40,562 nucleotides of DNA, taken from assembly GCA_000310025.1 (NCBI GenBank), contig FN649731.1, positions 118,840-159,401 on the forward strand, given 5' to 3'. The stretch is from Ectocarpus siliculosus. Taxonomy: Eukaryota > Sar > Phaeophyceae > Ectocarpales > Ectocarpaceae. This document shows positions 854-39,628 of this stretch, piece by piece. Every line of letters starts with the position of its first letter. Positions within the stretch are counted from its first letter, which is position 1. The notes beneath the pieces were generated by a model. It worked only from the letters and a program-made list of their open reading frames with translations. It searched no databases and was not told the origin of the DNA. Made by a program: the position numbers and the translations under genes.

Positions 854-3800
854 CTCGTCGCAGTCGCCGCCGATGCTGGTGCCCTTGATCTCGAAGGTGA
901 CGCCGTTCGTGATCACCACCGACGTGTCCAGCAGCCAGATACCCGTGGGCGTCGCCGTAGTACCGTTGACCGCGGTTTCCGTCGTCGAGTCCACCGTCAG
1001 AAGCATGCCCTACAAAAACAAGTGAACGGCGGCAGGTATTGTGTACCATAGATGAGAGAAAAAAAGGGGGGCGGGCGGGCGGGCGGGGGGTTGGGTGAGG
1101 CGGCTAGGGATTGGGGTGGAACCGAAAAACAAGCATCTTATGTACATACATGCCCACAGCACAAAAAAATGCTACAAAAAAAAAGGGTAAAAGATCTGCA
1201 TATTTTCACCACCAGCACACACAACACACATACGATTTCTTAAAAAAGAATAAAACTGCAAAAAGAGATATCTGCACAGCACCACCAAATACTATGTACC
1301 GCTGCTGTAAGGCACACACACACACGGAAAGCATTCCAAAACGAACAAGAGTGCAACGTAGCGGCCTTCCTCGACACGTGCAGTTCTGTTCTGTCGCTAC
1401 CGTTTCTGTGTTTGATCCGGAGAATAGCTCAGCCCCCCCCCCTCACGGGGTCCCAGTTAACGGCATTTACAAGTGTTTTTGTGTCTTCAACCGCGCTGAG
1501 AATGACGTCGTTTCGTTGCTCAGCCGGTTAGCGCGGTCGATGCTAATAATAAAAAAGACATCACACACACACGCACCGTGGGGACATCCGCGGGCTCCGT
1601 GGCCAGCCAGTCGTAGAGCTTGGTGAGGGTGAGACACCCGGCCTCGGATCGGTCTCCGCTGGCGTGAGCCACCGTAACAAGGGGCCTCTTCGTGTCCTCG
1701 AGGGTGTAGACGAAGCTCAGCTCGGCCGAGTCGTCGCAAACCACCTTGTCGGGCACCTGCGTCGCAATAGATGGATGGTAGAAAAATCAGCAGTCAGTTC
1801 CCGTCCGCACCCACGGCTCCCCCACAGCTACAAGCAAAAGTTCTCTATTGTTAAAAACTAATAACAAAAAAAAAAGAACTATGAAACGTTCTCATGTTCA
1901 CGAGAAATCAAGAAAACTTGAAAGAGATAAACATGAAAACACAGGTCAGTCTAGGAGGACCCTCACCTCAATAGCATACAAAAACTGGTACTCCACGGCG
2001 GCAACTGAAAAACAGCAGGCGAAGTACCGAATTTCAGAGTCTCTTTACTGACGTATACTTTCGAAAACAGCAGTTGACGGATACTTCTCATACTCAGCAC
2101 ACAATGCAACCACAGATCTTACCGGCGTGGGCGGGAATCCCGGACTCCCGGGCTCGCTGCTAGAGCTCGAAGCCACCGGCGCCGCCACCGGCGCCGCCAC
2201 CGGCTCGCTGCTAGAGCTCGAAGCCACAGGCGCCGCCACCGGCGCAGCTGCAGCGGGCGCGGCGTCAGCAATCGGAGCATCGGTGGTAACGGCGGCTGCA
2301 GGTGTTACTACGGGGGTGGGTGTGGGGAGAAGGGGCGCACCGGTTGCTACCGGAGCCAGGGGGGCGCCCGTGGGGGCGGGCGGGGCGGCGGTGGCAACAA
2401 CAACGGGGACAATCGGAGCATCGGTGGTAACGGCGGCTGCAGGTGCTTCTACGGGGGTGGGGGTGGGGAGAAGGGGCGCACCGGTTGCTACCGGAGCCAC
2501 GGGGGCGCCCGTGGGGGCGGGCGGGGCGGCGGTGGCAACAACAACGGGGGCGGTCGTCATCATCGTCGCTACTGCTACGCTCGAAGGAGCCACTGAGGGC
2601 GAGGCCGTGGGGGGGGTGGCCGGTTCTGCTACCGTCGCTGCTGCTACCGGCGAGGGCGTGGTAAAAACCACGGGGGCGGGGGAGGGGGCCGCCGAGGCGG
2701 CAACAACGGAGGGGGCGGCGGAGGGGGAAGAGGTCGGCGCACCTGTCACCGGAGCCGGCGTAGGCGCCACCGGCGCGAAGGTCGGGAGCGGCGGCGGCGA
2801 CGGGGCCGGCGTCTCATCGACGGGGGTCTCTGTCGGGCTTACCGCGGGCGCGCCCCCGGCCTCCACCACGAGGAAGCTCGAGGCCGTGCAGCTCGAGACG
2901 TCCGTGTCGTCGGCGCTGACGACCTCGAGCTTGTACTCGCCGACGGCCTGGTCGGCCGGGACGGTCACGTCGTAGTCGCCAGTGCCGGGGTCGTAGCAGC
3001 CGGCGTCGCCGCAGAGGGCCGTCGAGAAGGTCCCGCACCTGTGGTGGCATGGACGTAGAACTCAAAGTCATTGTTGTACCTAGATAGTTGACGACCTCGT
3101 ATCCTACACAAAGGAGAAGTCTATATGGGGGTGCTTGATTTAATTAATTGTTTTGGGGTTTGGGGAGTACATATATATGGAGGCGGCTTGCGGTCGACGC
3201 TCTTTGGCCTTGTGCAAAAATCGCCAAAGTTGGGGGAATCGAACTCAAGGCGAGTAAGCTCACGGACAGAAGTCTGTCCCCTAGCACACACTTGGAAGCG
3301 TTTCAAAATTGGACCGCACAGCAGCTTCAAAAATCTAGCTTGTAGCTCACCGAACTCGATGATAGAAGGATCGTTTGGAAAATCGCGGACCGCTAGACTG
3401 TAGTGTATCGCAAGGGGTACAACCTCAGCTACTAACATTGTACACAAGCGACCGCTGCGGGCGGTTAATTTACGATGGTAGTTTCGTACTGGAGTTAGAC
3501 TTATGAAAACCGAGATTTGCAGGCGTTTCCTGGATTTTTCAGAGGAGGTAGTGCGATCCCCCCAGGCCCTTAAGCAATTTTCGGTTTTTAGGAGACGATA
3601 ATATCGGGACGCTGCACCCTTTTACCTTTTACCTCGCATCCCTACAACGCCGGGACGGCGCGGTATGTTGTTGGGTGGTGTGTGTGATGACAAGTTTTTG
3701 GCTTTGACGTGCTTTTTATTCATCTGGGGGTGATACGCTACAAGTGTTATTTTAGGTGCTTTCGGCGAAGTCTAATTTTAGGCTGCGATGGATCAATGTT

Positions 3801-5414
3801 GCACAGGAGTACACACGATGGGCAAAAGGAACGCGTCTCTCAAGATCTCTCGACGTGTGATACATACACCTTCACCTTTCCAGTGGGTGCGTCACAGGTT
3901 CAGCAACGACCATGAGGTTTTGGGTGGCCACATCTTTTTGTTTGGAACCAGAAGTCGAGAGAACAACCTCTAAAAAGAGGCAATTCAGCAAAATACCGAG
4001 AAGCAACGCTCCCAGGACCGGTGCACCCAAGCACCAGAGCGGGAGGACGCAAAAACAACGTCAACGTAAATCAACGCAACACAACCTTGCTGCTAACGGC
4101 GCAGTCACCGAACCTAGAGAGCAGCTCAGAGCGGTGAGTACACAACCCACAGAGAAACAGCAAAAAAAAAGGCTTGTAAGTGCGCTCCCATTTACAAATT
4201 GTTGTGGGATAAATAATGTTTGTGGACGATGCTTCGGCAGGAAGGCAGGAAGGCCAGCAGCAGGCCACCACCCACAACGGATCGTTGTCGTCTTCAAAAA
4301 ATAGTAGTAATTTGGTCTGCCAACGGGGGTACGAACGGAATACTTTTGAGAACAGACAGGGAGGAGAGAGAAGGGCAAGCCGTCCCTGCCGCCGTAGCGT
4401 CTAGCCTGCGCGTCGTCGGACGGGAGGACCGAATCTCCTCACAACGCATGCCCACCAACTCGGGCTCGGACCCCGAAATAATGGGGTCATGAAACGAAGG
4501 CGGTAGTTCTTTTTCTCGGCAAACGTGTCAACGTGTCAAAATCAACTGCAATAACAGACCCTCCGATATTTTTTCTTTATTTTTGTCGAAAATCTCTTGC
4601 CAATTTATCCAGCGGTCTACAGCAGCAGCTGCCGCTGCTAACGCGGACGGCGCAACACGAACCCAACCGAACTAGGAAGGGAGAGGCGAGCAGCAACGGC
4701 GCGTGCTGCGCTCCCACCAACACACATCTCTCTCAACAACAACAACAACGACAAGAACCTCTCTCACCCTCCGTTTTCGCAGGCACCCTCATCCCCGCAG
4801 GCGTTGAGGTTAATCTCGAAAGTTCCCCCGCCCGCGCCGCCGCCGTCGTCGTACACCCAGCGGGAGGTGAAGGCCGCGCCCTGCTCCAGGTAGGTGGACG
4901 AGGCGGCTTCCACCTCGACCTCGCTCACGCTGGCCTCGCCGGCCAGGATCGCCAGCCCATCCTCGCCCGTGGGCCTGGTGACGTTGAACGCGTCTGTGCA
5001 GGCGTACACGGAATCGTCGTCCGCGAGCATGATCTTGATCGAGTACTTGCCGGCCTCGGCGTCTTCGGGGATCTGCACGTCGTAGGAGCCGTCCGAGTCG
5101 CTGCAGACGCCCGCGGCCTCGCGGGTGCAGAGGGAGGCGAGGGCCTCGTCCCCGCAGCCCGTCGTCGCGTCCGCGCTGTCGTGGCTGCGCAGCTCGATGT
5201 CGAAGCTCGTCAGGTCTCCCGTCGTGCCCCCGGAGTCCGTGTAGGCGAACGACAGCCCGAAGGTCTCGCCCGCCTCCTTCGAGTTCGCCGGCGTCGAGAC
5301 CACGATCTGGTAGGCTGTCGCCGCGCGCATGCTGCCGAGGAGCACGGAACCCAGCAGCGCGAGGGAGCGCGCTGCGCGTGGCTGCTGCTGCTGCTGCTGC
5401 TGTGTGGACTTCAT
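854..5414 (-). CDS. Gene A: secreted Kre9/Knh1-like surface protein with mucin-like stalk (3' partial)
   Basis: Four exons join in phase: 5414-4768, 3038-2123, 1756-1577 and 1009-854, giving 633 codons before the model leaves the readable part of the window. The start chosen is the ATG at 5414 because it begins a short polyQ run followed by a hydrophobic stretch (ARSLALLGSVLLGSMRAATA), a good signal peptide; an in-frame ATG lies 91 codons upstream. Two cysteine-bearing beta-sandwich domains follow, each closing with a strand pattern like GSYDVQIPEDAEAGKYSIKI, which is typical of Kre9/Knh1 (Ser-Thr-rich GPI-anchored) domains. Exon 2 then codes a Pro/Ala/Thr/Val stalk rich in AP, TP and SP dipeptides, like AGP glycomodules. 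Exons 3 and 4 begin a further domain, with GIWLLDTSVVITNGVTFEIK near its end, which I read as the possible edge of a parallel beta-helix. Donors are GTGAGA, GTAAGA, GTGCGT and GTAGGT; acceptors are CAG, CAG and TAG. Gene B has the same plan. Exact function is unknown; a cell-wall or adhesion role is inference. Confidence 0.8.
1431..1560 (-). repeat. Intronic repeat element shared with gene B
   Basis: Read on the gene A sense strand, this element starts about 16 bases after the exon 3 donor. It contains TTAGCATCGACCGCGCTAAC, a divergent spacer, a CAGCGCGGTTGAA-type segment and CTGGGACCCCGTGAG. The same order of blocks occurs twice in tandem at 38741-38995 in the corresponding intron of gene B and in the same orientation. 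On the opposite strand, GCTCAGCCGGTTAGCGCG resembles a tRNA D-arm/A-box, so a tRNA-related origin is possible. No B-box was found. Confidence 0.7.
2151..2252. repeat. 51-bp in-frame tandem repeat in the gene A stalk
   Basis: Two copies of a 51-bp unit start at about 2151 and 2202. On the coding minus strand they give a 17-residue unit with a serine run followed by EPVAAPVAAPVA. The period is a multiple of three, so copy-number change would keep the frame. Confidence 0.8.
2269..2550. repeat. 141-bp in-frame tandem repeat in the gene A stalk
   Basis: Two nearly identical 141-bp units begin at 2269 and 2410. On the minus strand each codes 47 residues of Ala/Pro/Thr/Val-rich stalk, including ATAAPPAPTGAP and LLPTPTPV. 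Only scattered substitutions separate the copies, which suggests recent duplication. The length keeps the frame. Confidence 0.85.
3039..4767 (-). other. Intron 1 of gene A
   Basis: This is a phase-2 intron of 1729 bp with donor GTGAGA and acceptor CACAG. It is AT-richer than its flanks and carries no convincing coding sequence on either strand. A short copy of the dispersed repeat also present near 8.5 and 27.6 kb lies at about 3631-3661. The equivalent intron in gene B is about 3.2 kb and has the same phase. Confidence 0.75.
3631..3661. repeat. Dispersed repeat, copy 1 (core only)
   Basis: A core of about 31 bp, starting ACCTCGCATCCCTACAA and continuing through GCCGGGACGG, matches 27669-27699 closely. 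The surrounding sequence does not clearly extend the match. It lies in intron 1 of gene A. Confidence 0.55.
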
Positions 5415-6105: not shown

Positions 6106-6109
6106 GGCG

Positions 6110-8204: not shown

Positions 8205-8510
8205 TTTACGACAAAGGGAACGAAACCTACAGTCAGCATTAGTACACCGCTACGACTATATTCTAGGGTACGATAGAACATTTATTTCTTGCCCAGAGCA
8301 AACAACAACATAGATTATATTGCTGTATTCTACAAAGTGCGGATGGATGGATGTGGAATCATTGAGTGCTGCGTTGTCGTTTGTGTACAACACCACGCAC
8401 GTCGGTTGCCTGCATGTCATTTCAAGTACTACTCTGGTGACTCTTGTTTTATAGTCTCAACAACCTCAAGTTATATAACCCAAAAGGTTCTAATGCTGTG
8501 AAGGGGGGGG

Positions 8511-11664: not shown

Positions 11665-13764
11665 CTCATGGAGGTCTCGTATCTGCTTGGCGAGGTAGCC
11701 GAACTCCTCAACGATGTACGGCTCTTGCCTCAACGCCACAAACGCGAGGTTGGCTTGGGTGTCATCCGCCTTCGAGGGAAACGAAAGAAACGTGTGCATC
11801 AACGCCAAAGTATTGTTGTGCTGGCTTCCAAAAATTGTTCCAGGCGTTCGTTAACTGAAAGTGGCGTATTTTCCATTGACCGTGGCATCTATCTCGACGG
11901 GCAGACACAACGAAATTGTGGGGTGGATTAACGAAAAAGGTGCACGACACGCCGGGCGTTCTTTGGTGAAGTGGCGTGAAAGGGTGAGGAGGCGTTCGTG
12001 CAGAGTCCTGTGCATACGGCTTATTCAAGCAGACAAGGGTAGGTACGAAGTCGGATGTTGGTAGCCCTCTCGGGCAATGTACAGCATCATGACTGACTTT
12101 TGGGCAGCACTGGGCGTTGATATCGTCAGGGGAAAGCATGCCAGAATGCCTCTCCCGCTCCCCGTTGGGCTCATCGACCCATGTTTGCGGCCCTCAGAAC
12201 TCTCTTCGCATAGCCTGTGGGGTACGTTTTTCACAAAGCACCGGCCAGGGAATACCTATCACACTTGCCAAAGACTCACGCGTCCACTCACCCCCTTGAG
12301 GAACGCCTGCAGCGCCCTCTGTTGCCTCTTACGCTTTCTGTCCTCCTCCCCGTCCGTCTCATCTCCAGCACCGGCTTCGCCTGTCCCCCCACCCTCCGCT
12401 CCTTCTGACTCTCTTCGCACCCCGTCAGCTCCCTTCTTGTCACCGCTGTGCCTGGCCTCCTTCCCGGAAGCGCCTCGCTCGGCGACGGCGGGATTCCCCG
12501 CGACGGCGCCTGTCACGGCCATGTCCGGGCTCTCGTCGACGCCGCCGCCGGCAACGGCAAGGACAACGTCGCCCACGGTCTTGGGCATGTGCTGAATCCT
12601 GGCACGGCCTTGCACATCCTTTACCGACGCTGCTGGTGCCGGAGTCCCGCCGCCGCCGCCGCCGCCATATTCCCGGAGGTTGTCGGGAGACCCGCCAGCA
12701 CCACCATGTTGCCGATGCTGCTGCTGCCCTTCCTCCTGCTGATACCGCTGGCGCTGCTCGCCGGCGTTACCGCCAGAAGCCGGGGGCGAAGCGTGACGCC
12801 CTCCCTCGCGCCCCGAAACCACCCAATCACCGCCTTTCGCACCGCATCCGCCCGTTTGTTCGTTCTCCTGTCGTTGCGGACTATTGCGGCCGTCAACGTC
12901 TCTGCGGTGACCCTGGGTTTGTCCCATCTCTCCTCCTCTTCCTCCTTCCCGCGGGTCCCGCTGCTGCTGACCGAGCGGCGGAGCTGTCATCCCGGTGTTC
13001 GAATTCTGCGTAAATGACGTATCCGCCGTTAACACCGACACCGTCTGCTGGTCCTCCTCGACACGGCCGTCTAAGCCAGGGAAATTGTTGCTACTACTGT
13101 CTTCGCCAAAGTGACCCCCCCCGCCTTCGGTCACCCTTCCAGAAGGGGAGCGGAAAAGGCCCCTGCCGCTTTTCCGCCTAGGGGAATCTGGGCCGCCGTC
13201 TTTGCAGGAATGGCGCTTCCCCGCATCCCCTCTGCCGCCGCCGCCGCCCCGTTCTGGAGTGAACACGGAATGTAGTTGCTGTTGTTGTTGTTGTTGCTGC
13301 TGCTGCTGCTGCTGTGCCAAGAATGTGCCCGCGCTCTTCTCCCTTCGCAAGAGGCCGATGCCCGTGGACCCTTCCCAGTGGGCGTCTTTTCCGCCGCCCC
13401 CGTCTACCGGCGTTCTCGTTGGCGGCGGCGATAGGACGCCGCTAACGACGCCACCGACGTTGCCGACGCCATATTGAGCGGTGGGAATGCCCCCCTCCGG
13501 CCCGCCGTCTCTGCGCCTGGTGGCGGCGCTACCTGCGGCCTGCTGGTGGTACTGGTGCTCGTCGCGGGAGGTTACGCCACTGTGTTGGTGGTTATGGACC
13601 TCATCACGCTCGGGACGATCTCTTCCCTCCCACCCTTGTCGCCTTGCCGATCCCTCCCTGTCATCGCCATGCTGGTAGTGATGGTGTTCCTGTTCCTCGT
13701 CCCATTCAGTCGTTGCGTCATCGGCAATACCATGAGGTTCTCGTTCTAGTTCCGGGTCGAAGAA

Positions 13765-13803
<39 letters not shown>

Positions 13804-16800
13804 TTGTTGTTGCTGCGCGTTTAGGGGCAGTTGGTGGACAGTAGGGCTTCTCTCGCTTTCTTCTCGGTGTTCTGGCCTCGCGCTCCTCGCTTCAGCGGCT
13901 GCTTTTTCGCTGAGACGCCCGGCCTCGTGAGCATCGTTGATGTTCACCAGCCGGGTCTGTTGGTTAGTCGAACGACAGCATGCACAGACATTCTCTAACA
14001 AGCATCGTTGATGTTCGCCAGCCGGGTTGTTTGTTAGTTGAACGACATCTTGCGCGGACATTCTAACGGCAGCATCGTTGATGTTCACAAGCCGCTGCTG
14101 GTATTTTGTCAGAAGACATCATGCGCAGATACGATCTTCTGTCCAGTGGGTAGGTACCCCGCAAACTAATACCAGTGTTTGGAATCGGAGATGATGCTCG
14201 AGAGGGAGGTGGGAGACAAAAGGGGAAGCAACAGAGGTTATCGGGTAGGCTTCCCGCCCACTCCTGTCACCTCTGGAGGTGGGACCCGTCCGTTTTTCTA
14301 AAGCATGCATCTTACGCAGCCTGAAACGTGCTCAAGTTCATGAACGTCATCGGGCAGGAATTTGGTGCCGTCGAGAACAGTGCAAACAACAGTACAGTAG
14401 TACAGTGCCTTTTAGCGATAAGCACGCCTTACACTGTTGAGAGAGTTATGCTTGGTCGAGTTGAGCGCGTCTGAGAAAACATGCCGTTGCTTGCAAATTC
14501 CCAGAAAACTCCCCGGTCAATCCGATGCGCTCCATTGCCCTTTTGTTGAAGTGAGGGTTTGAGTGTTAATCTCACAGTAGGCAAACCTTACTTAGCCACC
14601 GCAAACGGGTACACCTTGCACCTGCAAGTCTTCAATGCGCGACCCCAGCTGCGTGATTCTTGCGTCTCGCTTCGCGAGCTCGGTTATCATCCTCATGCTC
14701 TCCGTCTCGGCGGTGGCCGACGCCTCCTCCGCGACCTCCCGCATATCCCTGCAGATGGTATCCTTCAACGACAACACCTGTGAGCAGCGGGCGGAGTGAA
14801 GAAACATGCTTCTATGTCGGTATTGGGCCCAATGATTTGATTATTTATTGCAGTCATCAACTGGGTGCGCTCACGTAGCTGTCATGAGCTGGGTGCGCTC
14901 ACGCACTCACTACCACTACCACGGAAGCCGTTTCTTGCCTGGTCCCGGAGGGCCGTCGACAGGTGCTTTCTGGCGGCAGGGTCCAGGCCGGACAGGGCGC
15001 CGAGCCTGTTCTTCATCGCGTGTTCGAGCCCCCTCATGGCCTCCAACGCGCGTCGGTTGGCCCTCTCTACGGTCGGGGCAACCATGCCGGCAGCGCCTTC
15101 TCCGAGAGACTCAGCGTCAGACGGGGGCGAGGAACTGCCGTCGTGTTCTTCTCCTTGGTCTTCCTGCTCCTGCTCCCCCTCTCCCAACGCCTCGAGTGAC
15201 ATTGCCGCCGTCATTGACGGCGGCGACGCCCCGTCAACGCCCCCAGCGGGGTCACACCCTTTCCCTTCCCTTGGTGCCTCAGCCTCTCCCTCCTCACCTT
15301 TCCCGCCGCTATCCTTCTCCTCTGCAGTGCTGGCGGCGTCTTGCCCACCGGGAGACGACTCCACCATCTGCTGCTGCTGCTGCTGCGGCTGCTGCTGCTG
15401 CTGCTGCTGTTTCGTCGTGCGATCTTCCCGTGCCGAAACGAAGGCTGGCGAGGAAGCTCCTGCCTCCTTCGTCGCCGCCGCTGACGCATGTTCTTTTCCT
15501 GGCGACTCCTCGCCCGCCGGTTGCTGGATCCCGCTCGTCCGTTGTGTCTCGCCTCGCTCTTCCACCTCCTCCTCTTCCTCTTCTGCCAACGCCTTTGCCT
15601 CCTCCGGTATCTTCGTAACCCCCGCGTCGTCCCGTGCTGGCGGCTCCGATTGCTGCTTCTCATTCTCTTCGCCTTCTCCAGTGCCGCTCTCCTCTTCTCT
15701 CAGCGGCGGCGGCGATTGTTGTCTGGCGTCGCCGCTTTCGCCGGCCGTGCGCCTCGAGACGCTGCCGCCCCGTGAGTGCCCGCGGGGGCCTTTCGCTGCC
15801 GATGACGGCGACACGCTGCCGCGGTGCCGCTCACCTCCCGACGTTGCACCGCCGCCGCCGCCCCCGCTGCCGCTCTCTCCGCCCGCTCCCTCACCCGCCG
15901 CTACGGCTGCTTGCGTCCTGTGTCGCCTCCCCAAGTTGGGAACACTGCCGCCGCTCCCGCCGACGGCGGTTTCGGTGTTCGTCGCCCGCCGCCCTCCTCT
16001 CCCTCCTCTCCCTCCGACGCGGTCAGTGGCGTTGTTGTTGCTGTAGGAATCTACGGCGGTGGATGCCGAAACGGAGATGGCCGTGCCGTCTCGATCCGCT
16101 CCCGCCCCGGCCCTCGCTGTCCTCAGAGATGCGTGCATCCCTGCCCGAGAAGAATCGGCGGCGGTGGCGGCGGTGCTGGTGGTGGTGATGCTCTGCCCGG
16201 CGTCGGTGGACGTGACGGTTGCGGCGTCATCGTCGTTTGTGGGAGTGTTGCACGACGAGGACGAGGGGCTGCCGGCCCGGGTGCCGCTGTACCTATCGCC
16301 GTTCAGGGCTCTCGCTGCTGAATGCGAGGAAGCCATGGACACGGCGGTGGAAACGGCGATCGACGCCGCCGAGGCCTTGTTGCCGTGCGTCGGGGACGGC
16401 GGCCGCCCTCCGGCCCTGCCGCCGCCACTGCCGCCGCTGCTGCCTCCCCCGGCGCTGCTCGCGCTGAAGCCGTAGGCGCCCCTCTTGCTCTTGCTCTTGG
16501 CGGCGGCGGTGGCGGCCGCCCTCTTGCGAGCGCGCTTCGAACTGCTGGCTCGCCCCATGTCCTTGATCGTCATCTCTGCCTGCTCGAGGTCGAGCTTCCC
16601 CCTCTCCACGAAGAACTCGAGCCTACGCATTCGTGTTCGCGTTCGGGGGTCGGTTAGAATTTGAATAAGTATTTCTTTGGCTGCGGCGGGAGGCCGCCAA
16701 TCTGCAATTCGTAGACGTAGTGCCTGACCCCTCCTTCCCTTCTAGCCTCTCCACTACCACGAGCCGTATTGCTTACCCCAGCGCAACCCTAACAGCGATC

Positions 16801-26941: not shown

Positions 26942-29900
26942 TCAATCGTTCATGTTGCTTTGCGAGAGGCTGAACGACTTGCTGATCGTGCGTCCCACGT
27001 ATCGGCCCAGGTCACGGCTCCTGCGCCACATGGCCGAGTCTCCCGTGGGGGGCGTGATTTGACCCTCGTATTGCTCGGCGTGGAAGTTCTGGCTCGTGGA
27101 GTAAATGGGGTTGATGAACGCTCTCTGCCGTGCAAAAAAGTAACGACAACAACAACAACAACAACAACAACATTGGATGGAAGAAAAAAAATATGACACA
27201 CCATTAACATAAGAAAAACAGCAAATTGCTCCATGGCCAGTACACGCTACAATGACCAAGCCATCGGCATATTCACGAAGGTGTTCCATCTGGTTCATCT
27301 TGAGGTAGGGGGGGGGTCTCGCGCGGTGTAAGTGTGGAGAAAAGAGGGATGTGTTCGACTATATTCCACAAAAAAATCAGAACGCGCCTGTTTGGTACTT
27401 GAACAGCCTCACTACAACGTGGCTTCTTTGGTTGGTTGTGTGATAAGCGTTGGTTTTCTTGGTCAATATTTTTTGTGTGCCTAGGTTGTATCAACGAAAA
27501 AACGAAAAAACGACTCTACGAAAGAAACGCCGGTTAGAACAATTGAGCGGCAACACTACGCCTCAGCAAAAAGAATGGAGGAAACCGTGTGTGTGTGAGG
27601 GGGGAGGGGGGGGGGGGGTGTACTCATAGTCGTGCATGCCGTAGTCGTTTGACCATTGACCTCGCATCCCTACAAAGCCGGGACGGAGCACGCCGGGTTC
27701 TCACCGGACCAGGCTCTCACATCACCAAGCGCGAAGCGGCGTGAGGTATTTGGCGAGTCGCATGAAGGGTGAGCTGCCATCCTGCTAAGGGTGTTCGGCA
27801 TCTTGTGCTTACTTCCTTGCGTACGGATGACAGCTACGCATGACTTAATTTATTTTCTGGTGCTTTCACTTCCAGAGACAGTTGTAAGCACTGTGTAACT
27901 GCCTCGAGGATGCTTGACCATTTTAACACAACGTGGTGCGATCATCCCCCGTTGCGCGGAGTGAGGGTTCTCCACCCCGCACAACATGATCTACTCGACC
28001 ACCATTATGGTTACCGCCAAAAAAAAAACGAGGTAAAAAAAAAAACGGTAACCTGGTTGCCGAGTTCACGAAGTGAATTGGCTTGTTTTACAACGTCGTT
28101 GCCAAGCGACGAAAACCCAATCCCGATGGCAAACACCGAGTGGGGGGGCGGTGGCGACAGCATCATGAAAATCCAAAAACGCTTCGCGTTGATCTGCAGT
28201 CCGTTCGAAACCAAAAAACAACACTTGTGATGGCACATCAGACGTGTTCGAGGCTTTGCATGGGGTCTCTACTGCAAGACATCCAAGTCTAGCCAGCCTG
28301 CCAGGTCGACGGTTTTCCAAAACTGAAAATCATGTACAGAACGCTGATTTGCCCTTCCAACAATAAACACTGACGTGAAGGATGATAATTCGTCAAGGGC
28401 AAAAGACAAACAAAAAAAGCGCACCTGGTCGGGACTGTCGGGTTCCGCCATCCCCTCCACCGCGAGGGAGACGGAGGGCGCAGGCCTCCTCTTGTTGAGC
28501 ATGTCGAGGGTAGCGAGCTTCTCCTCGCGACGGCGGTTCTTGTTTTTCGTGCGGAAGCCGGCCAGGAGCACGGCCAGCAGGCAGACGCCTGAACGGAGGG
28601 GGGGAGGGAGGAGGGGGGGGGGAGAACGGGGCAGTTGTACGGCCGGCTGTTTGAATCAATCCCAAGGGTTGCCTTGACAGGGCCCTACGACAAGCTGCAT
28701 CGCTTCCGTAGTCATACCTGTGCGATGACGCAAAAACCAGCAGAACATCTCCAGAAGAACGTGATGGTGCAGCAACACATCAACAGCTTCGAAAAATTAT
28801 TCCCCAAGATATCACCCCCCCCCTTAGATGTGGCATCATCGCCGCTCACCTCCGGCGCTGAGGCCAATCACCAAGGCCAGCTTGGTCGCTGCGGACGAGT
28901 CGGAGCCGGTGTCGACGGAAGCAGCAGCTACGCCCACGGGCAGCTCGACGGACAATCCCCACGCGTCGTCGTTTACCTTGTCCACCACCTGTCGCCAAAA
29001 TCAGCGTACATGAGGGGGATGGTCGTACACCTGGCATGCAACTCCTAATGGTGAGCGACCTACAACACGGTCGTCCGTGGGACAACAGACAGGTGCTTGC
29101 GCCTACTCCGCCGGCGTCATGACAGAAAAAAACAACAACAATATAAGGCACTCCTGTACCCCGTATGATAAAAAATATGCTTGTATACTAGATAAACGCG
29201 AACCATTAGACTACCTGCAGAGCGCTGGCCTTACAAGTAGTATGCACAACATCGGAAAGACAAAACACTCCCGGAAAACTTATCTCGCAATCGAACCACT
29301 ATTCATGAAACAAAAACTTAATGAAACCCCTGCCTCAAGGGAACAAGGACAAAATAGTCCTCCCGTTTCACTCGTGTCTCACCAGCAGCCTGTAGTCGGC
29401 GCCGTTCTCGATCTCCTCGGGCAGCGTGATCGTGGCCGAGGCCACCGGGATCGTCGCCGTGCACGAGCCGCCCTCCTGGTCGGCGCAGAGGTTGTTGCTC
29501 ACGCGCTCGCCGTCCTGGCGCAGGTAGATATCGAACTCCGTGTTCTCGCCCACGTACAGCCACGACACCGAGAGGTCGCCTCCGGCGTTTAGCGTGGTGT
29601 ACCTGTTCGTTCGTTTCGTTTCGTTTGTAACGGTCGCACGGAAAGAAGGCAGGCACAAAAGGACCGTTCGACAGGTAGAAGTGAGGGAGAATGGCGGGGG
29701 GGGGGGATCGTGCCGATTGGTGAATGGGTTCAAGAAGTTTCGAGCGGAGATGCCGCAACTGCGCTCTGAAGGATCCACCTCCCAGCGGACGATCAACTGC
29801 TGCAAAGGGCCGCCAAAGACGCACAAACACCTCAACAAGTCAGCAGCTTCTCCGTTTCATACTCAAATGCCTATCCAAACCAAGCAGGGATTCTTTTTGT

Positions 29901-32900
29901 CCAACTCACCCGTCAGGCGACGTGATCTCGACGTTCGATGTCGACGTTCCGATGATGGTGAACGTTTCCGAGGTGTCCTCGAGGTCGGAGGACTGGTCTC
30001 GAACGCGCACAGTGTAGTCGGACCCAGACTCCAGGCTGATCCATTCATCCGTCCATCATGAGCCGGGCAGGGTTGGGATTCCAACGATAGGGTCGGGAAC
30101 GGGGGAAGGGTCGGGGAATTTGGTCAGCCCATGGATCTGCAGCACTTCACTCAAACAAAGCATGTTGAGCCGCTCCGCACGTGACGCGCTCTGCTAAAAA
30201 ACTGACCGCCGAACCAACGCTCGACCAATCAGAGGGCATCAGCACCAGTGTAAGGAAGAAGAGAAGTGCTTGTTGGCGACAAAGGATAGTGGAATCAACC
30301 GTCTCATACCAACGGAAATATTGATTGTTCCTATTAGTAACGGGGCAGGACAGATACTCGTGGCCTCGCGCCAATCAATCCACGATGCTGGGAGACAATA
30401 CCTGGCATGTATGTTTATCTACTCATCAACGGGAGTCGTCTACAACTGAACTCTTCGGCAGTTTCCGTGCGCACCTCAAGAGGAACAGTTTCCGTGCACA
30501 ACCTCTCTGCATAACCTGGTATAGTAAAAAGGTTTCGAAGGTCCAACACGCAACTACGCATCCTCAACATCCGCAGCAAGGAGCAGCAGCAGCCAAACGA
30601 CGACACACCCAAAACATTAACATTTGCAAAACACAAACATACACACACCACGCCACAACAAAACGACTACTGCTGTACGCGTCAACACAATACTGCTGTG
30701 GCGTCCTCCGGAGCTGCTCACCCAGTGTCCGGCAGGACGACACACAAATGACACCCCCAAAGACGACCATTTAGTCGTAAATGCTCACTCGGTGTCCGGC
30801 AGGATGACGGTCTGCTCCTGGGTAAGGTCGAAGCAGACGCCGTTCTCCTCCGCGAAGCAGAGGTCGGCCACCTCCTCGTCCCCCTTGAGGAGGTGGATGG
30901 CGAAGTTCTCGCCGGTACCCTCGTAGATCCACTCCACCGGTACGGCGTCGCCGGCGTGGTACGAAGACGTGCTGTGAGGGACACGTCGCGGGGCGAGGGA
31001 GGAGAAGCGGGCGGGGGGAATGCTGGTGTCGAGACAAAAGTACGGTGCGCATTGGCAAAACTAGGATATGGATTACGACCCCCGCTGAACCCACACTACG
31101 TGAACATGGGCCCGCGGATTCTCGCCTGGAGCATGTGTTTCGACCTCGAAGGTCAACTCCTTTACTTTTAAAGCTCCGAATTTAGTCGGCGGAAAAAAAA
31201 CACAAAAAGTAGATACATGCCGCCGAGTTTATGCCGTATTCGCGCATGAGGAACGCACGGCATACTATACCCCCTCTACCGCATCTACAAGTATGCACAT
31301 TGTCAAATCCAAATCAACACCCCGCCGCGTTTGAACGCTATCTATCTTCAAAGCGAACAAGGATACACATTTCGCAAGGAACTCGGCATGAACCGAAGCA
31401 CGCGTGTTTTTCGGCTTCCGGCGAGCTGTAGTATAAGCTCTTCATGTCCCTCGGAATAAAGTACAGGTCCATGCGGCTATTTATCTTCTCCCCATGGTCA
31501 TGCTGCCACTGGCGACCTACATAGGTAATCCGTTGTCTTTGGTAGACAGCTCGGAAAGATGTGGTACATACAAGCAAAGTCGACGAGAGATTGAGAACAA
31601 CCAGAAAACCACCTTCCCACTTGGTAGATAAACACGGGAAAAGTGCGCTTGGCTTCACAACCAAGAAGAGGGGTGCGAAAACCGACCAACATCAGGAAAG
31701 CCCCATGCAAAGGACACCGCGGTTCCTCCAAGCAAGACCAACCACAATAGTAACGTCATGGCAGAGGCCGCCGTTTAGAGCAAAAGAGACTAAAACGTGT
31801 TCACGAAGATGGATACTACGTAACAACTATTACAGGATTCAGAAACAAGAAACACAGAGAGCAGGTCAGCCGCTGAGGATCGTTGTGTACCGAATCCTCT
31901 CGATGTACTTGTATACAACCTTGACGGCCGTGGTGGTGAGTGTAACAACATAAAAAATTGAACAAACGGAGCCTCGAACCGCAATTGACGTTTCATATAT
32001 CCGGCCCCCTACATACTGCTGTCCTTTGAGCATTGGCGCCCGCTGGGATATGAAGCATGCGAGCTGTGAAACTCGGTCGAAGGGGTGTACACGCGATGAG
32101 TTGCGACCACTTGTTCCACAGAAACGAGGAATTGAAAAAGGAGCGCATCTGTTGCTGTTGCTCTGATCTGCTGTGCTCCATGCTCCGCATATCAACATTT
32201 GAAATCTCAGCAGCGACACGCATGCTGGGGTTTCCTCTACACGGGTCGAATCCGAACAGAGTTGGAATCTATACACCCTACACAAGAACTACCCGGTCCT
32301 GGGTGCATCTATGACATGATGCAGGAAAAAACGAAAAAACGGCACGGGTCGTTGCCGGCAAATTAATTTTGTCGACAAACGCGCCCTGTGATGACCCGCC
32401 TACGATCGCGCTGTGACGAGAAATAAAGAGCCAAACAAATCATGCGTTTGGCTCTTCCCCGTCGCTTCCTATATATTTTCCACGTGGGAGTTGACAATTA
32501 AACAACCGCACGTGCGGAAGGCGTGAACGAGTCGCCCTCCAACTACTGAGTCTGTCTGCACCGAAACATGGCTACACAGACGGAGAACACGCAGCTGCAT
32601 CCGAAGGGCAAAAAACGAAAAACAAAAAGAAAAAAGAAAAAGGTGGTCCACGGCGGCGCACGGGTAAACATTTGGGAATCTCAAAGAGAACGGGAGTCGA
32701 GCACCAACCATGTGTCACCATGATTCGAGCAAGCACACAAGCCACCAAGAAGGGTTGCAGATAAGAGAGCGCTGTAGTGGTGGGTGGTGGGTGGGTGTGC
32801 CTTGGCGTCCTCTCCTCTATTTCTGTTTATCTCTCTCGCACACGCTCGCTCACCTCGCGGGACTCGAAATGTCGAGCGTGGCTCCCAGCGCGACCCTCGC

Positions 32901-32981
32901 CGTGCTAGCACCAGCCACGAAGATGGCCGCTGCTGCTCTCCCGAAAGCCGTTGGCGGTCGGGTCCGCTTCGTGATCACCAT
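26942..32981 (-). CDS. Gene C: type I membrane protein with two Kre9/Knh1-like ectodomains
   Basis: Seven exons join in phase: 32981-32854, 30971-30789, 30035-29910, 29602-29383, 28988-28850, 28588-28425 and 27124-26942, 1143 nt with a TGA stop, or 380 residues. All donors are GT (GTGAGC, GTGAGC, GTGAGT, GTGAGA, GTGAGC, GTGCGC) and all acceptors CAG. Residues 1 to about 34 form a signal peptide (AAAAIFVAGASTARVALGAT). Two beta-sandwich repeats follow, with the opening pattern YHAGDAVPVEWIYEGTGENF and the matching LNAGGDLSVSWLYVGENTEF, closing strands SGSDYTVRVRD and NGADYRLLVVD, and a cysteine pair in each. A linker leads to one transmembrane helix (LALVIGLSAGGVCLLAVLLA), a basic stop-transfer stretch (FRTKNKNRRREEK) and a tail of about 110 residues rich in Ser, Pro and Tyr. 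It faces gene B head to head. The domain type points to a wall- or matrix-facing surface protein, and a sensor role is inference. Confidence 0.88.
27150..27173. repeat. (AAC)n microsatellite
   Basis: Eight or so AAC units lie just upstream of the acceptor of gene C exon 7. On the coding strand the tract reads GTT repeats and adds to the pyrimidine-rich region of the intron. Confidence 0.8.
27617..27742. repeat. Dispersed repeat, copy 3
   Basis: Same orientation and block order as 8511-8646, again preceded by a G-run. It lies outside the coding exons, in the intron between gene C exons 6 and 7. No open frame or terminal inverted repeat was found, so the element class is unknown. Confidence 0.75.
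30972..32853 (-). other. Intron 1 of gene C
   Basis: A 1882-bp phase-2 intron separates the signal-peptide exon from the first ectodomain exon. No open frame on either strand looks coding. It is AT-richer than the exons. Confidence 0.7.
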
Positions 32982-33476
32982 CCTCGGTTTGGACAGCTGA
33001 TGACAGCGAGAATGACAGACCAACAACAGCGTGCGTCAGGCACACAGCGTTTCCGCATGCGCTCTCTCCGATAGACAGGCACACTCTCCTCTCTGCTCGC
33101 TGCTGTTTTCATCGAATAACCGTCCCGCAGCAGACGCAAAAATAACAACCTGTTCCTGTTCCGTGAGCAGTTCGAAGAATTCAAACAACCATCCCACAGA
33201 ACGCATCCACTCATTACCTCGCACCTGGCTCTCTGGTCAGACGGGTGCGTGTGTCACGCGTGCCCTGATGTAGTCGCTGGTGTGGACGCGGCGGTTGTTT
33301 TGAATGAGGAACGGAAAGGAGCCGGTTGCAGGGCCGTTGGGTGTGTATGTGTGACAGATGGTGACCTTTCGGGGGGGGGTACGCCGAATCATAATGAGGG
33401 GGGGTGTTCTAGATCGAACGCGGCCGTGTGAGAGCGTGAGAGCATCCACCCGCTTTTTTGCACTGACATCCCGGGC

Positions 33477-33511
<35 letters not shown>

Positions 33512-33892
33512 GTGTCGCGCACTCTCTCCCTCTTCGCATGCCGGCACCCGCCCTGCCACGGTGCTTGCTGCTGTGAGTGGCGGTGTAAGGAGGCCTACGA
33601 GGCTGCTGTGGTTGGGCAAGAGAAGATACGTTGATTAAGTTTCCAGTATTTTTCCCCCCGGAAGAGAAAGGAGAGAGAGGGCGAGCCGTTCGCCAATTCG
33701 AGTTTACGACCACAACGCGGGACACGAAGACACAAGGACGCCGCGAGAGCAATCAGGATGCACGAAGCGGTGCGACACACGCTGGCAATGTCCAAGTCCG
33801 AGGTAAGAAGACGAGATCCCGCGCCAACGACGGCGGCGGCGGGAGCTTGCTTCTCGAGCGGGAGAAGACGCAGGCCTCTTCTCCCGAAAGTA
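32982..33892. promoter_or_regulatory. Divergent promoter region of genes C and B
   Basis: The two start codons lie 911 bp apart and point away from each other, so both promoters and both 5' UTRs must fit here. I see no clear TATA box. A pure (CTG)11 run at 33478-33510 sits in the middle. Shared regulation of two related surface-protein genes is plausible but not shown. Confidence 0.5.
33478..33510. repeat. (CTG)11 microsatellite
   Basis: Eleven uninterrupted CTG units lie in the B/C intergenic region. The frames crossing it code homopolymeric Leu, Ala or Ser and have no other support, so it is treated as non-coding or UTR. Confidence 0.85.
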
Positions 33893-36800
33893 ATGGCGAC
33901 TTGTTCTCCTTCAGCCGCCTTGTACTGCGGCATCTTATTGTTGCTGCTGCCAACCGCTACCACCAGAGTAGCGGCGCTGACGGAGATAACGAACGTGGCC
34001 GCGCCGACATCGATCCTCACGGCGGGCACCTACTACGCCGTCGGCTGGGTCTACTCCACGGACACCGGCGCCTGGGGCACGACGGGCGACCTCCGCCCCT
34101 TCGAGATCGAGCTCCGGTCGTGCGGAGGAGACGCCGCTCAGCAGGCCGAGTGCGGGCTTGGAGAGTCCTGCGGCAACCCGTACCGCGCGCTGTGCGATCT
34201 AGAGACAGGGGCCGCCTGCATGGACTCGGACGGCAGCTACGACGTGCTCATCCCGGAGGACGTCGACGCCGGCAGGTACGTCTTCAGCGTTACCCACCTC
34301 GGCCTCTCCAGCTGGACCTCCGGCACCTCATCGACGTCGGACTCCGGTTTGGTCACCGGCTGCTCGGAGAGCTTTTTTGTGGAGGAAGCGGCCGCGAAGG
34401 AGGTGCTGGCCGTGGAGGCTCCCGCGGCGAGCTCTCTGCAGCCGGGAGATGCGTTCACGGCGGAGTGGGAGTACGAGGGCGCGGACGGGGAGACCAACGG
34501 GAACTTCGAGGTCAACCTGTTCTCGTGCGCCGACCAGGCCTGCGAGCAAGACAGGTATGTAGGTCGAGCCAGCCTACTTCCCTCTCCCAAATCTCAAATC
34601 AGTGAAACATGTGTTTTTTTTGTTCTCGTTCTCGTTCTCTCTGTCTCTCTCTACTCCGTGGTCCTATCATACACCAGCAAGCATTCTCGGCTGTGTGCCG
34701 GCTGTGCCTGTCTACCGGCTGTATCGTACGGTTTGGGTTGTGCGTAGGTTTGCTATCCGCATGCCTCGAGGGCGCTGATGCTGCACGCTCGCCGTGTGTG
34801 CACCGCCTATTCGTATTTCATAGCTAATTTAGCCGTTACAAGCGTGCCTGCCACGAATTTATTGGTATTCGGAGCATCATCCGAAAATTATGCGACTGGC
34901 TCATGTTCCTGTTGTGTATGGATGCAAAAGTATGCATATGATCGTCTGCCGCCACATGGTTGTTGGTGGATGGATATATCTTTGTTTACCCGCCATTGCC
35001 AGCTAGCGTGATCGAAGGGCGGGCCACAATGAGCCTTTGACGAAGTGTATACTTTGGCCGTGCGTCCACGAGTTGTTACCAACTACTGCTGTACCTCTTG
35101 ACGAGCGAGCGTAAAGCGCGCCTAGTGGCGGAAAATAAGAACGAGTCGGGGTTCCTCCTCCTACCGCTCTATTCTTCACGTTCATTAAGGAATAATAAAA
35201 ACACACAGAAAGACTACCCATTCGAGATATACCCACAGTCGAACGGGATGTGGAGTCTTTTCAGTGAGTGAAGGGAAACCGGCTTTCGTACATAAGTCCT
35301 TTTAGGTTGGTTGTGTCATGGTGTTCTTTAGCTTCTTCGAAGAAATATTTTCATGTTTGCCGTTTACTCCCAACCCGTAGTCGCCCAAAAGGATTAGGAT
35401 TCCTCTCCCTGAGGCCCCCTACCCACCTCTCCTGCGGTGCTTTCATTCTTTCCCTTCGATTTTTTATGCGCTGAACTCGCACTCTCTTCTGTGTAGGTAC
35501 AGACGTAGCACAGACTCGAACCTTCATGTTGTATCGTAGCGCTTTCCACTCTTTTCGCCCTTTGAACGTTAGAAAAGAGCGAACCCATGGAATATCGACC
35601 GGTATGCAGTGTAGTGTAGCTCTCTTCATAATGGTTGTAGACCGCGGCTGTGGGTGTGTGGATCCCGCGGGGGAGTTTAAATCTTAACATCGTCGTAAAC
35701 GGTACATAGCGTGGCGTTCTTGTTTGACGAGCACAGGTCAGAATGAGCGCGCGCTAGGTTTGCGCGCGCATGGAGGGAAGCTTGTCTTGCAGCAGTATCC
35801 ATTTGATTGTTGTTGTGGTTTGCCCCCCCCGTCCCGGTCACTCCTCGGCCAGCTGTATGCATAGCACGGCGGGGACCAGAAAGGGCAAGTAGTTGCGTGA
35901 AAACGGAGCGCCCATATATGCGCGTGTGTTTGACCATCCCCAAATCGGCAACGAGAGGCAGCCTGGAAGGAATGTAGTCTATGTTATACGTAGTACAACA
36001 TGTAGCTTGATTCGCCCCCGGGAGCCTTTTGATGTTGTTCTCCTGTACATACGTAAGCTCGAAATTCTGGCGGCTAGACGTGTGTTGCCACAGCAGCACA
36101 ACAGCAGTACATATCTTTGCGGTGAGTTCGATTAGCGGCGAGATAGGACGCCCATCCTCCGTGATAATGTGATAATAGCTCGTCTAAATCCGGAACGGGT
36201 TTTAGTAGTGAAGACAACAAGATTACGTGCGCGGCGCGCGTTCCTCCGCGAGTAAATTATAAATCATCAGTGTATAGGCTTTAAAAGACTCGAAATAAGT
36301 CCAGTACCCAGCCGGTTTCCCTTCACTCACTGAAAAGACTCCACCACATCCCGTTCGACTGTGGGTATATCTCGAATGGGTAGTCTTTCTGTGTGTGTGT
36401 TTTTATTATTCCTTAATTAAATTAACCTGCTGAGTGCCCTTTGTTGGTGGTATGCATACAAACGCAACAGAGTACTTATCCCATGTGCGCCATCCATGAC
36501 TGGGTCTCCCCAACCCTACGCCTACAGTAGGTCGCTTGCAGGCGTTGGCAATCGACCACTCACTGCTGTTGTAACAGCTGGGGCAGACATGAATTCATGG
36601 TGTGTTCGCTCCAAAGATATTTCGAACCCGCTATCCCAGACAGCAGTAGTCAGAAAGATGCAACGTCACCAACTCAACCACAGGGGCGACCGTTTTTTTT
36701 ATCTCATGAAGCGTTGGATCCCGTGTGTCGCTGATGCGTCCAGACAACATGTTGGTGTACAAATAATTTGCAAAAGCGCAGCAGGCAGAAAAAAGGTGCG

Positions 36801-38489
36801 GTTCATATTTTTTACCCGCCGTCGGTTAAGGTGAACTTGTGTGGCCCTCATCTGCAAGAAAACTAATCATCTGCACGTATGCATACACGCATACTTCGCC
36901 CAATTACATGAGCTTGTTCACGTCAGTTTTCTGGAAAGTATAACTACAGCAGTATACATAGTCTCACTGATGGATTACCCGTTCGAGTTGGTAAACCATA
37001 AGTCTCCTCAGATAGCATGGGATCAAAAAGTGGCAGTACCTCCCACGGGCGGTGTGTCCACTTCCACTCACTTTCAAGTCCTGCGCCTGATGTATGCATA
37101 CGATCTTCGTTTGTAGGGCTTGAACAACGCCGTACATGCTCATTGACATAAAATGTTTTAGCAATTCTTCTACCATAACCTAGATACAGAGGTGGACCCC
37201 GCACATTCGTGAAAAAAAACAGAGAGAGGGGGAAGGAAGTGCTGAACACTTTCTAGCGGGCAAGAATTGCCGGCTGATTGCGCCGAGGGAAAGGCGGAGA
37301 AAAACGAACCGGGCTCATACGTGGGGCAATTTTCAATTTTCATGTTGGACAGGAAGAACTAAAAAGAAAACATATGGTATATTTTAGAGTGGTAGAGCCG
37401 GGTAGATACCCGTCCTCCCACCAATCACTTGGCGATCAGGAAAATTCAATTGTTTTTTGTTGGGCCCCTATGTATGGGAGGTGAACCGAGAAAAAATGTG
37501 CTCCAACTGTTTCCTTTGTAGCGCCCGCTGGTGCGGCACTCGTTACACAGGCACACGTGTTGAATGGTGCCCAAAATAGATACATGCGAGAATTCCCGCG
37601 CATCAATGCGAGACAGAGGGAAACAAAAAACGAGAGACTCTATAACAACACACCACGGAGCTCTCTCCCTCACCCCGCGCCGGATCCTCTCTTGACATCG
37701 GATCGCCACCCCAACCACCACCTCAGCCTCCCAACAATAAACTTCGCCACCCCCCAACCACACCGGCGCTATCCCCCAGTTGCGGGACCTTGGTAGCGGA
37801 GCTCTGTGGGGAGGCGGGCTGCTACGACCCGGGTCCCGGAGACTACGACGTCCGCATCCCGGCCGACACGACGCCGGGGACGTTCAAGCTCCAGGTGAAG
37901 AGGGTTCCCACCGGGGAGGAGGCGTGCTCCGCCGAAGCTTTCGCCGTCGAAGCGGCGTCCTCTGACAGCAGCAGCGGCGGCGGCGCCCGCGCCATCTCCA
38001 CGCCGGCGCCTGTCCCCGCCGCCTCGGCGGCGACCACCACGCCCGCGCCCGTCGTATCATCCACGGGGGCTCCGGTGAATGCGGCCACGGGGGCTCCGGT
38101 GCCTGCTGCTACGGGGGCTCCGGTGCCTGCGGCTACGCCGGCTCCGGTCGCCGCCGCCGCTGAGTCCGCTCCCGTCCCGCTGGCCACTTCTTCGGCGACG
38201 GAATCGGGAGAGATCCCGGGGACGCCGCCGACACCGGTGCCTCCCCGCGTGACGTGCGACCCGGCGGCGGTGGTGGCGTTCAGCTACAAGCTGGAGACGT
38301 CGACCCTGCTGCCGCTGATCACGATCTCGCACGAGAGCGAGGACAGGGACGAGGGGGGCTGCACGAACTTCTCGGGGCTCTGGGAGTGGGTGAAGGCGCA
38401 GGATGCGGACGTGCAGGTGTGACGGGAGGGAGGGAGGGAGGGAGGGGGAGGAAGGACAGGTTTTAAGAGCGAAGGGAAAGTAGGGGAGG

Positions 38490-38565
<76 letters not shown>

Positions 38566-39628
38566 CGCGCACGAATGTGAGGAACACTACAGGAGAGGCA
38601 CGAGACGGAGAGAGACAGAGAATTGAAAAGCGAGAACAGGTGTAACGAAAAATAGAGAGAGAGAGAGAGACAAGGCAAAGTGGTTGAGTACCGCATGCCA
38701 TCGACAGTGGGGCACTGGTGTGTGTGTGTGTGTGTGTGTTTAGTGTTAGCATCGACTGCGCTAACCTGTTGAATAGACGTCAGTCTCAGTGCGATTAATA
38801 TTCATGAATGCTTCTAAAGGCCATGACCTGGGACCCCGTGAAGGGGCGTCATATGTGTGTGTTTTTTTTGTCATTAGCATCGACCGCGCTAACCTGCTGA
38901 CTGATGAAAAATCGTCAGTCTCAGTGCGGTTGAAAACACACGAAATGCTTCTAAAGGCCATGACCTGGGACCCCGTGAGAGGGCGTCGTGTGTGTGCATG
39001 TCCGTGCTCTCCCGCGCATGTCGGGTCCGCTTATCGTCGACGATGTGTTGTCGTTGTCGTTGTGTTAGTCGTTGTCCTCGTACACCTTGGGGTACGGTCA
39101 TGTCTTAGTAGCATCCACGCACACATGTCCTTTGCACGACTTTTTTTGTCGCTCTCGGCTTTCTTGCTTATTGGCTAGAAATATATGTAGTGCCGCCGAA
39201 AAAGATCTCGAACAGAAGGAACATTTCGCTGCGGCGCTCCCTATTTAGCGTTGTCGTCTCTCTCGTCCTCACCCCACAGGCGTTAACGAATACCCTGCTC
39301 CAGCGCAACAAAAAACAAGGAAACACGACCCTAACAAGAGCAAAACATTAATTCGCCCTCTCGCCAACCCCCGTCCTCTCGAGGACGTGTGGTCAGTGGT
39401 GTAACCGTTACGGGATGCAAAACATGAGTCCCCCCCCCCCGCATCGCACGACTGCCCCCTCCCTTGTGTCAGGAACTCCTGTATCCTGCGGATCCCACGA
39501 CGGGCGAAGCGGACACGACCGGGGGGGCGGCGACGGGAGTGTGGCTCCTGCGGACCTCGGTGGACGTGACGAACGGGGTCATGTTCGAGGTGATGGGCAC
39601 CCAAGCCGAAGGGGGCGACAGCGACAAG
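33893..39628 (+). CDS. Gene B: secreted Kre9/Knh1-like surface protein, paralogue of gene A (3' partial)
   Basis: Three exons join in phase: 33893-34554, 37780-38416 and 39473-39628, 485 codons. The ATG at 33893 is chosen because it opens directly onto a signal peptide (MATCSPSAALYCGILLLLLP); an in-frame ATG lies 45 codons upstream. Two beta-sandwich domains follow, closing with GSYDVLIPEDVDAGRYVFSV and DYDVRIPADTTPGTFKLQV and with conserved cysteines (CGTLVAELCGEAGCYDPG). A Pro/Ala/Thr stalk with 24-bp repeats comes next, then a region starting TCDPAAVVAFSYKLE and ending GVWLLRTSVDVTNGVMFEVM. Donors are GTATGT, GTGTGA and GTACGT; acceptors are CCCAG and GTCAG. Exon phases equal those of gene A, but the intron gene A has inside PPTP/VP is absent here. 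The last exon is 156 nt in both genes. No stop is reached before the poor right end. Confidence 0.82.
35184..36417. mobile_element. Non-autonomous transposon with about 100-bp terminal inverted repeats
   Basis: The left end (35184-35284) and right end (36310-36417) are near-perfect inverted copies. Both read inward from ATTAAGGAATAATAAAAACA through AAAGACTACCCATTCGAGAT to GAAGGGAAACCGGCT. The right copy carries two or three extra bases at CA and TGG steps. The 1.0-kb interior has no transposase-like frame. It is inserted in intron 1 of gene B. A related single end lies at 23285-23375, so the family has several copies. The flanks are AT-rich, and I could not fix a target duplication. Confidence 0.82.
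38063..38150 (+). repeat. 24-bp in-frame tandem repeat in the gene B stalk
   Basis: Units beginning ACGGGGGCTCCGGTG start at 38063, 38087 and 38111, followed by a diverged fourth. They code TGAPVNAA, TGAPVPAA, TGAPVPAA and TPAPVAAA. The repeat resembles TGAPVAPVA blocks in gene A but has a different unit length. Confidence 0.85.
38491..38560. repeat. (AG)35 microsatellite
   Basis: A pure run of about 35 AG units lies in the intron after gene B exon 2, preceded by a GGGA array. A (GT)n run follows at 38719-38739. The corresponding intron of gene A is shorter and lacks the AG run. Confidence 0.95.
38741..38995 (+). repeat. Two tandem copies of the intronic element shared with gene A
   Basis: Units of about 128 bp align from 38747 and 38875, both starting TAGCATCGAC and ending with GACCTGGGACCCCGTGA. 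They also share TGCTTCTAAAGGCCATGACC. The single relative at 1431-1560 has the same block order in the same orientation relative to its gene. The second copy contains CTGATGA and CAGTCTCAG-type motifs, but no convincing C/D snoRNA geometry. Confidence 0.8.

Follow-up and report, generated by a model that had tools for sequence, protein, structure and literature searches.

What is encoded by a 40,562-nucleotide stretch of the brown alga Ectocarpus siliculosus (contig FN649731.1, positions 118,840 to 159,401 of the forward strand; the window, part of contig C6 below), in which three multi-exon genes, A (minus strand), B (plus) and C (minus), all begin with a signal-like start and tandem domains resembling Kre9/Knh1 (KNH)? 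The original prediction saw a local family of wall and receptor proteins. Comparison with the remainder of the genome (189 Mb, 492 contigs searched) points elsewhere for two of the three: with a probability of roughly 85%, A and B are the front parts of genes for mannuronan C5-epimerases (ManC5-E), the alginate-modifying epimerases of brown algae, whose own catalytic exons would lie just outside the window.

The three genes were read exon by exon and their frames and splice borders then verified by script. All exons are open and phase-consistent with GT/AG borders, third-position GC is 0.84–0.85 across A, B, and C, and the signal-like starts were recognised by eye; the presence of three genes is thus borne out. 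The limits first given to the finding, 854 and 39628, are exon borders with GT splice donors and not gene ends, and therefore, A seems to run off the left edge of the window and B off the right. In the outermost 853 window bases on the left and 934 on the right, inspection by eye revealed no additional coding exon of either gene, and the contig beyond is N (left side to 118839, right side 159402–175965, contig coordinates). The exons of A and B, in window positions, are as follows.

4768 to 5414, minus strand: gene A exon 1, with the signal-like start, KNH-like unit 1, and the first half of unit 2, ending in a phase-2 donor
2123 to 3038, minus strand: gene A exon 2, with the second half of KNH-like unit 2 and then a 243-residue stalk rich in Pro, Ala, Ser, and Thr, like that of an arabinogalactan protein (AGP)
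1577 to 1756, minus strand: gene A exon 3, start of the ManC5-E module
854 to 1009, minus strand: gene A exon 4, ManC5-E module up to GGDCDE and a splice donor, with a probable continuation leftward
33893 to 34554, plus strand: gene B exon 1, with the signal-like start, KNH-like unit 1, and the first half of unit 2 (an additional in-frame ATG lies at 33758)
37780 to 38416, plus strand: gene B exon 2, with the second half of KNH-like unit 2, a 97-residue AGP-like stalk, and the start of the ManC5-E module, all fused, the intron that A has between stalk and module being absent
39473 to 39628, plus strand: gene B exon 3, ManC5-E module up to GGDSDK and a splice donor, with a probable continuation rightward

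Up to the last exon in view, A amounts to 633 residues and B to 485, in the same order: signal-like start, two KNH-like units, stalk, and lastly about 106 residues that form a third region. It is this third region, formerly listed among unspecified further C-terminal domains, that identifies the genes; such a region is indeed present, and it corresponds to the start of a ManC5-E module. When searched against the genome itself, it gave 14 matches (19 of 19 candidates scored): two each in A, B, and a further gene of contig C6, termed D, and eight elsewhere. At seven of these eight other loci, a ManC5-E catalytic exon follows 176–1208 bp downstream on the same strand. Three of the loci, on C21, C4, and C56 (L015, L016, and L017), are near-copies of one ManC5-E-like locus at 89%–97% DNA identity, and the independent lines hence number six at most; outside this group, the catalytic exon lies downstream in five of five loci.

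Two loci show how such a gene reads on. At L010, the matched exon continues with ..GGDCDELRIQSTG.., and the exons that follow hold the catalytic part up to GFDPHDDS; both L010 and L009 run through LRIQS into catalytic exons at the place where the last visible exons of A and B reach their splice donors. At L019 (C16:4274204), the third region and a catalytic part with the DPHD motif share one open frame, read from a start codon chosen by the analysts. This frame matches the structure of the mannuronate C5-epimerase AlgG (PDB 4nk6, E 3.7e-19), Pfam Beta_helix (3.9e-16), and NCBIfam AlgG (1.1e-23, yet far below the cut-off). NCBIfam returned nothing for the third region of A. L019 appears to be intronless in a family that is otherwise intron-split, and a hydrophobic C-terminal end lies in the same frame. 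The third regions were also compared directly with L010 and L019 by blastp, with composition correction and masking off: the respective E-values are 1.1e-12 and 2.3e-8 for A, 3.5e-9 and 1.1e-8 for D, and 1.6e-4 and 1.4e-4 for B. The N-terminal part of the module in both A and B is thus homologous to that of ManC5-E loci. DPHD was also seen at L010, L011, and C26:6814593-6815111. Across the genome, 43 catalytic matches fall into 22 loci (matches within 5 kb on one strand; a lower bound, with in-frame stops in some loci), and A, B, and D are not among them.

Several observations weigh against this identification. The splicing of A and B was read from genomic sequence alone, and the similarity of B to the start of ManC5-E is modest. 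The C4 locus shows no catalytic exon, its downstream side reading N from 1.0 kb; its near-copy C21 (97% DNA identity) has the exon 1205 bp downstream, and the corresponding place at C4 is N. A stop interrupts the third-region match in both C21 and C4, and the match in C56 is weak (E 0.008); the three loci read as recent duplicates and perhaps pseudogenes. The catalytic query found no match on C6, where the DNA beyond A, B, and D reads N; this is to be expected if the exons sit in the N stretches, and also if no such exons exist. Finally, the KNH-like units of A reach only 22.2 bits against the Pfam profile Kre9_KNH (PF10342; cut-off 24.6), and B matches no Pfam family up to E 1, Kre9_KNH included. 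Neither the near-copies nor the intron places of D (below) alter the odds, as the argument is carried by the five independent loci together with L019.

That no catalytic exon was seen for A, B, or D in the genome search would also fit catalytically dead or truncated ManC5-E relatives, now serving as AGP-like structural proteins of the wall in which only the front of the module is left. Such sequence does decay in this genome, as is seen from a broken fragment at C33:3294568-3294681 (minus strand, L072), 79% identical over 38 residues to A exon 2. Against decay stand the strong codon bias kept by the exons of A and B and the splice donors in which their last visible exons end, precisely where L010 and L009 read on into catalytic exons; loss of the enzyme is accordingly rated improbable. 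As probable front parts of ManC5-E genes, A and B are better described as secreted alginate-modifying enzymes with wall-type front modules than as the extracellular matrix proteins they had been taken for. The sequences do support KNH-like ectodomains common to all three genes, with secretion or anchoring of the products.

By their sequences, A and B are true paralogs in opposite orientation, sharing 38.6% identity over 223 residues (blastp E 2e-34) and 43.5% over 108 residues (E 5e-18). In both, KNH-like unit 2 is split by an intron at the same place and in the same phase, and the similarity of the units between the two genes is above chance in four of four pairings (z 11.1 to 38.3; 0 of 1000 shuffles). 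The units of A and B are longer than those of PF10342, with inserted cysteine loops.

The glycoprotein-like stalks that had been ascribed to A and B are confirmed. An AGP backbone is recognised by at least 50% Pro, Ala, Ser, and Thr together with spaced X-Pro pairs; these four residues make up 74% of the stalk in A and 72% of that in B, in comparison to 33% of the KNH part of A. The composition of both stalks is thus that of an AGP backbone, and O-glycosylation of hydroxyproline is predicted. Pairs of the form [ASTVG]P number 48 in the A stalk (shuffle mean 40.0, maximum 49) and 17 in the B stalk (mean 13.8, maximum 19), while PP occurs 5 times in A (mean 12.0) and twice in B (mean 3.3). Within the stalk exon of A lie two 141-bp copies, 97% alike (window 2269–2549), a sign of recent lengthening of the stalk.

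Gene D (L053/L054/L006/L007; C6:795534-800768, plus strand) has the same build—signal-like start, KNH pair, stalk, and ManC5-E start—and shares contig C6 with them, at distances of about 640 kb (B) and 670 kb (A); C6 reads N from 801541 on, where D would continue. Three intron places are common to A, B, and D: within KNH unit 2 (phase 2), within the start of the module, and after GGDCDE/GGDSDK. The introns shared include the one before 'CGT', alike in place and phase in all three genes. The intron between stalk and module is found in A alone, and D apparently carries a private one that separates KNH unit 2 from the stalk.

Other ManC5-E genes seem to differ in their front modules. Two loci on C26 (L074 and L075) have Cys-rich repeats upstream on the same strand, and one of them also has a WSC-like half domain there (C26:6811598; 26.8 bits, cut-off 27.8); judged by place, these fronts would belong to the C26 ManC5-E genes. 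In a comparison of the genome match lists, no KNH match outside C6 fell within 100 kb of a catalytic locus, and the KNH front has consequently been seen here in A, B, and D alone.

Taken together, A and B would be secreted chimeras comprising a signal peptide, two KNH-like beta-sandwich units, an AGP-like stalk, and a ManC5-E module, with the exons for the catalytic beta-helix expected just outside the window. From what is known of the family, they most likely act in the cell wall, converting M residues of alginate to G and so stiffening the calcium gel; retaining the enzyme in the wall and determining how far it reaches would probably fall to the KNH pair together with the glycosylated stalk.

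Gene C is built differently. Its exons, and the interval that separates it from B, are the following.

32854 to 32981, minus strand: gene C exon 1, with the signal-like start and the first strand of KNH unit 1
30789 to 30971, minus strand: gene C exon 2, KNH unit 1
29910 to 30035, minus strand: gene C exon 3, end of KNH unit 1 and start of unit 2
29383 to 29602, minus strand: gene C exon 4, KNH unit 2
28850 to 28988, minus strand: gene C exon 5, with the end of KNH unit 2, a short linker, and the start of the transmembrane helix
28425 to 28588, minus strand: gene C exon 6, with the rest of the transmembrane helix and a basic cytoplasmic tail
28053 to 28193, minus strand: gene C exon 7, tentative, with a weak coding signal
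32982 to 33892, no strand: 911 bp separating the start codons of C and B, which are divergent

Spliced, C amounts to 367 residues, the last 47 of which are doubtful, as is the reality of exon 7 itself (third-position GC 0.64, against 0.71–0.96 in the other six exons of C). A single transmembrane helix spans approximately residues 252–279 (best 19-residue hydropathy 2.61, at residue 256) and is followed by a basic tail, in agreement with the membrane anchor and cytoplasmic tail already ascribed to C. The predicted protein, separate from A and B, is a type I membrane protein whose two KNH-like units are divergent and whose basic tail is short. Kre9_KNH matches it over two stretches at 34.9 bits, above the cut-off of 24.6, which places C in this family. 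When the HMM comparison that accompanied the original prediction was run, C was thus the only one of the three to pass, with A below the cut-off and B without a match, although a signal-like start and two tandem KNH-like units can be read in all of them.

Is C, then, a member of one family with A and B? Between the two units of C itself, the relationship is clear (z 18.8). Of the eight pairings with units of A and B, three stand well above chance with 0 of 1000 shuffles each (unit 1 of A with units 1 and 2 of C, z 8.7 and 5.7; unit 2 of B with unit 1 of C, z 9.1), and the remaining five are weak (z 1.9 to 3.8; 2 to 60 of 1000 shuffles). The domain similarity proposed for the three genes is therefore strong between A and B and uneven with C. 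By blastp, C is remote from both (2.6e-4 to A and 1e-3 to B), its introns lie in other places, and the genome search found no second copy of it (five of five matches are C itself). A profile of the seven units of A, B, D, and an open reading frame (ORF) on C16 aligns with the profile of the two units of C at 96.1% probability (hhalign, E 3.3e-9, in a single comparison). We read all these units as one domain superfamily of which C would be an early branch.

The notion of A, B, and C as one local family whose members, structural wall proteins and receptors, act jointly in wall sensing or adhesion draws on the KNH-like pairs in all three genes, on this profile match, and on the start codons of B and C, which are divergent and, as first stated, 911 bp apart. 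It is hard to maintain, and is considered very improbable, when A and B read on into the start of a ManC5-E module, C is a remote relative with differently placed introns and no further match in the genome, and a stretch with coding signal for another protein separates A from C. The gene that resembles the paralogs A and B in build is D, farther along the contig, and not neighbouring C. The intervening stretch, on the minus strand at approximately 12.3–19.4 kb (12340–19399), contains Gln- and Ser-rich stretches with some coiled-coil-like pieces; six pieces from and beside it gave no match in Pfam.

As to its role, C would most likely contact a wall polymer at the plasma membrane, perhaps as an anchor or sensor. 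No domain supports signalling by C, and the visible tail matches no Pfam family above the cut-off. NCBIfam gave only a match at E 0.065 for C, and PDB searches with its ectodomain (best E 0.11) and with the KNH alignment (best E 0.028) found nothing convincing. Yeast Kre9 and Knh1 are soluble proteins. An ordinary membrane-tethered protein of wall assembly, similar to these in role and not a receptor, would agree with the Kre9_KNH match and with a tail lacking any family above the cut-off, and is weakened by the clear transmembrane helix and basic tail of C; it is a serious possibility, held at a little short of even odds.

KNH units also occur elsewhere in the genome. Seven further loci (L056-L060, L062, and L064) have them without a ManC5-E module in view, and five of the seven KNH frames end at the stop codon in the pattern MS[MYV][RD][LF]. 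On C16, an intronless ORF with two KNH units (L073, C16:4488652-4489287, minus strand; Kre9_KNH 27.5 bits, cut-off 24.6) has a SET-domain ORF and further long open frames in its vicinity. The one capsid match of nucleocytoplasmic large DNA viruses (NCLDV) found in the genome (C16:4438430) is about 50 kb away; the site is a virus-like island, which may have captured a host KNH gene. In a scan of viral contigs with the KNH pair of A, three stretches matched the pattern and none was confirmed, in a collection that may not include close relatives of the host genome. PF10342 gave no match over the whole genome (one candidate scored), which is not read as absence because exons were searched singly and C passes once spliced. 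A supposed giant protein at C27:1328639, a '6274-aa open frame', was rejected, as about half of the locus is N.

A wider proposal would make the KNH pair a brown-algal wall-binding module found in four settings: secreted ManC5-Es (A, B, and D), genes without ManC5-E in view, the membrane protein C, and the intronless copy in the virus-like island. Here, B and C would share one divergent promoter region and form a pair of epimerase and wall-contact protein coupling alginate stiffening to feedback from the wall. This is put forward as speculation, with only a slim chance of holding in full.

Among known systems, the fungal WSC and Mid2 wall-stress sensors are single-pass proteins with a WSC domain or a long Ser/Thr-rich stalk and a cytoplasmic tail. 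C is similar in its single pass, its ectodomain, and its short basic tail, and differs in having no WSC match in Pfam and no long Ser/Thr-rich stalk (the ectodomain is 29% Pro, Ala, Ser, and Thr). Judged against the Kre9/KNH domain of PF10342, C passes with two stretches and the profile of A, B, D, and the C16 ORF aligns to that of C, while A stays below and B has no match. No paper on Kre9 in brown algae or on a KNH domain was found in the open literature searched, and neither KNH nor Kre9 occurs in the main texts of PMC11468063 and PMC8307928.

The closest parallels are the brown-algal epimerases themselves. According to PMC11468063, a screen of stramenopiles detected ManC5-E genes in no lineage other than brown algae, with a mean of 27 per genome, and the sister of these algae, S. 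ischiensis, with 11; all have DPHD. The 22 catalytic loci found here are near that brown-algal mean. A and B resemble these enzymes in the third region, which corresponds to the N-terminal stretch of the module, in their secreted start, and in belonging to a multigene family; they differ, as visible here, in that their catalytic beta-helix exons would lie outside the view. The stiffness of alginate in brown algae is set by this large epimerase family, and the KNH pair with its AGP-like stalk on some of the genes, the Cys-rich or WSC-like fronts on others, and a neighbouring KNH membrane protein are testable candidates for what targets each enzyme within the wall. The locus also illustrates how the edge of a window can make an enzyme look like a matrix protein of unknown role. 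AGPs of brown algae are mentioned in PMC11468063, PMC8307928, and PMC7461865, and chimeric AGP-ManC5-Es from Ectocarpus in PMC5100021 (there citing Fischl 2016 and Herve 2016). A KNH front on such a chimera was described in none of the open papers searched. With these chimeras, known here by description only, A and B share a stalk rich in Pro, Ala, Ser, and Thr joined to a ManC5-E module, and to judge from their sequences, they are very probably members of the same chimeric kind.

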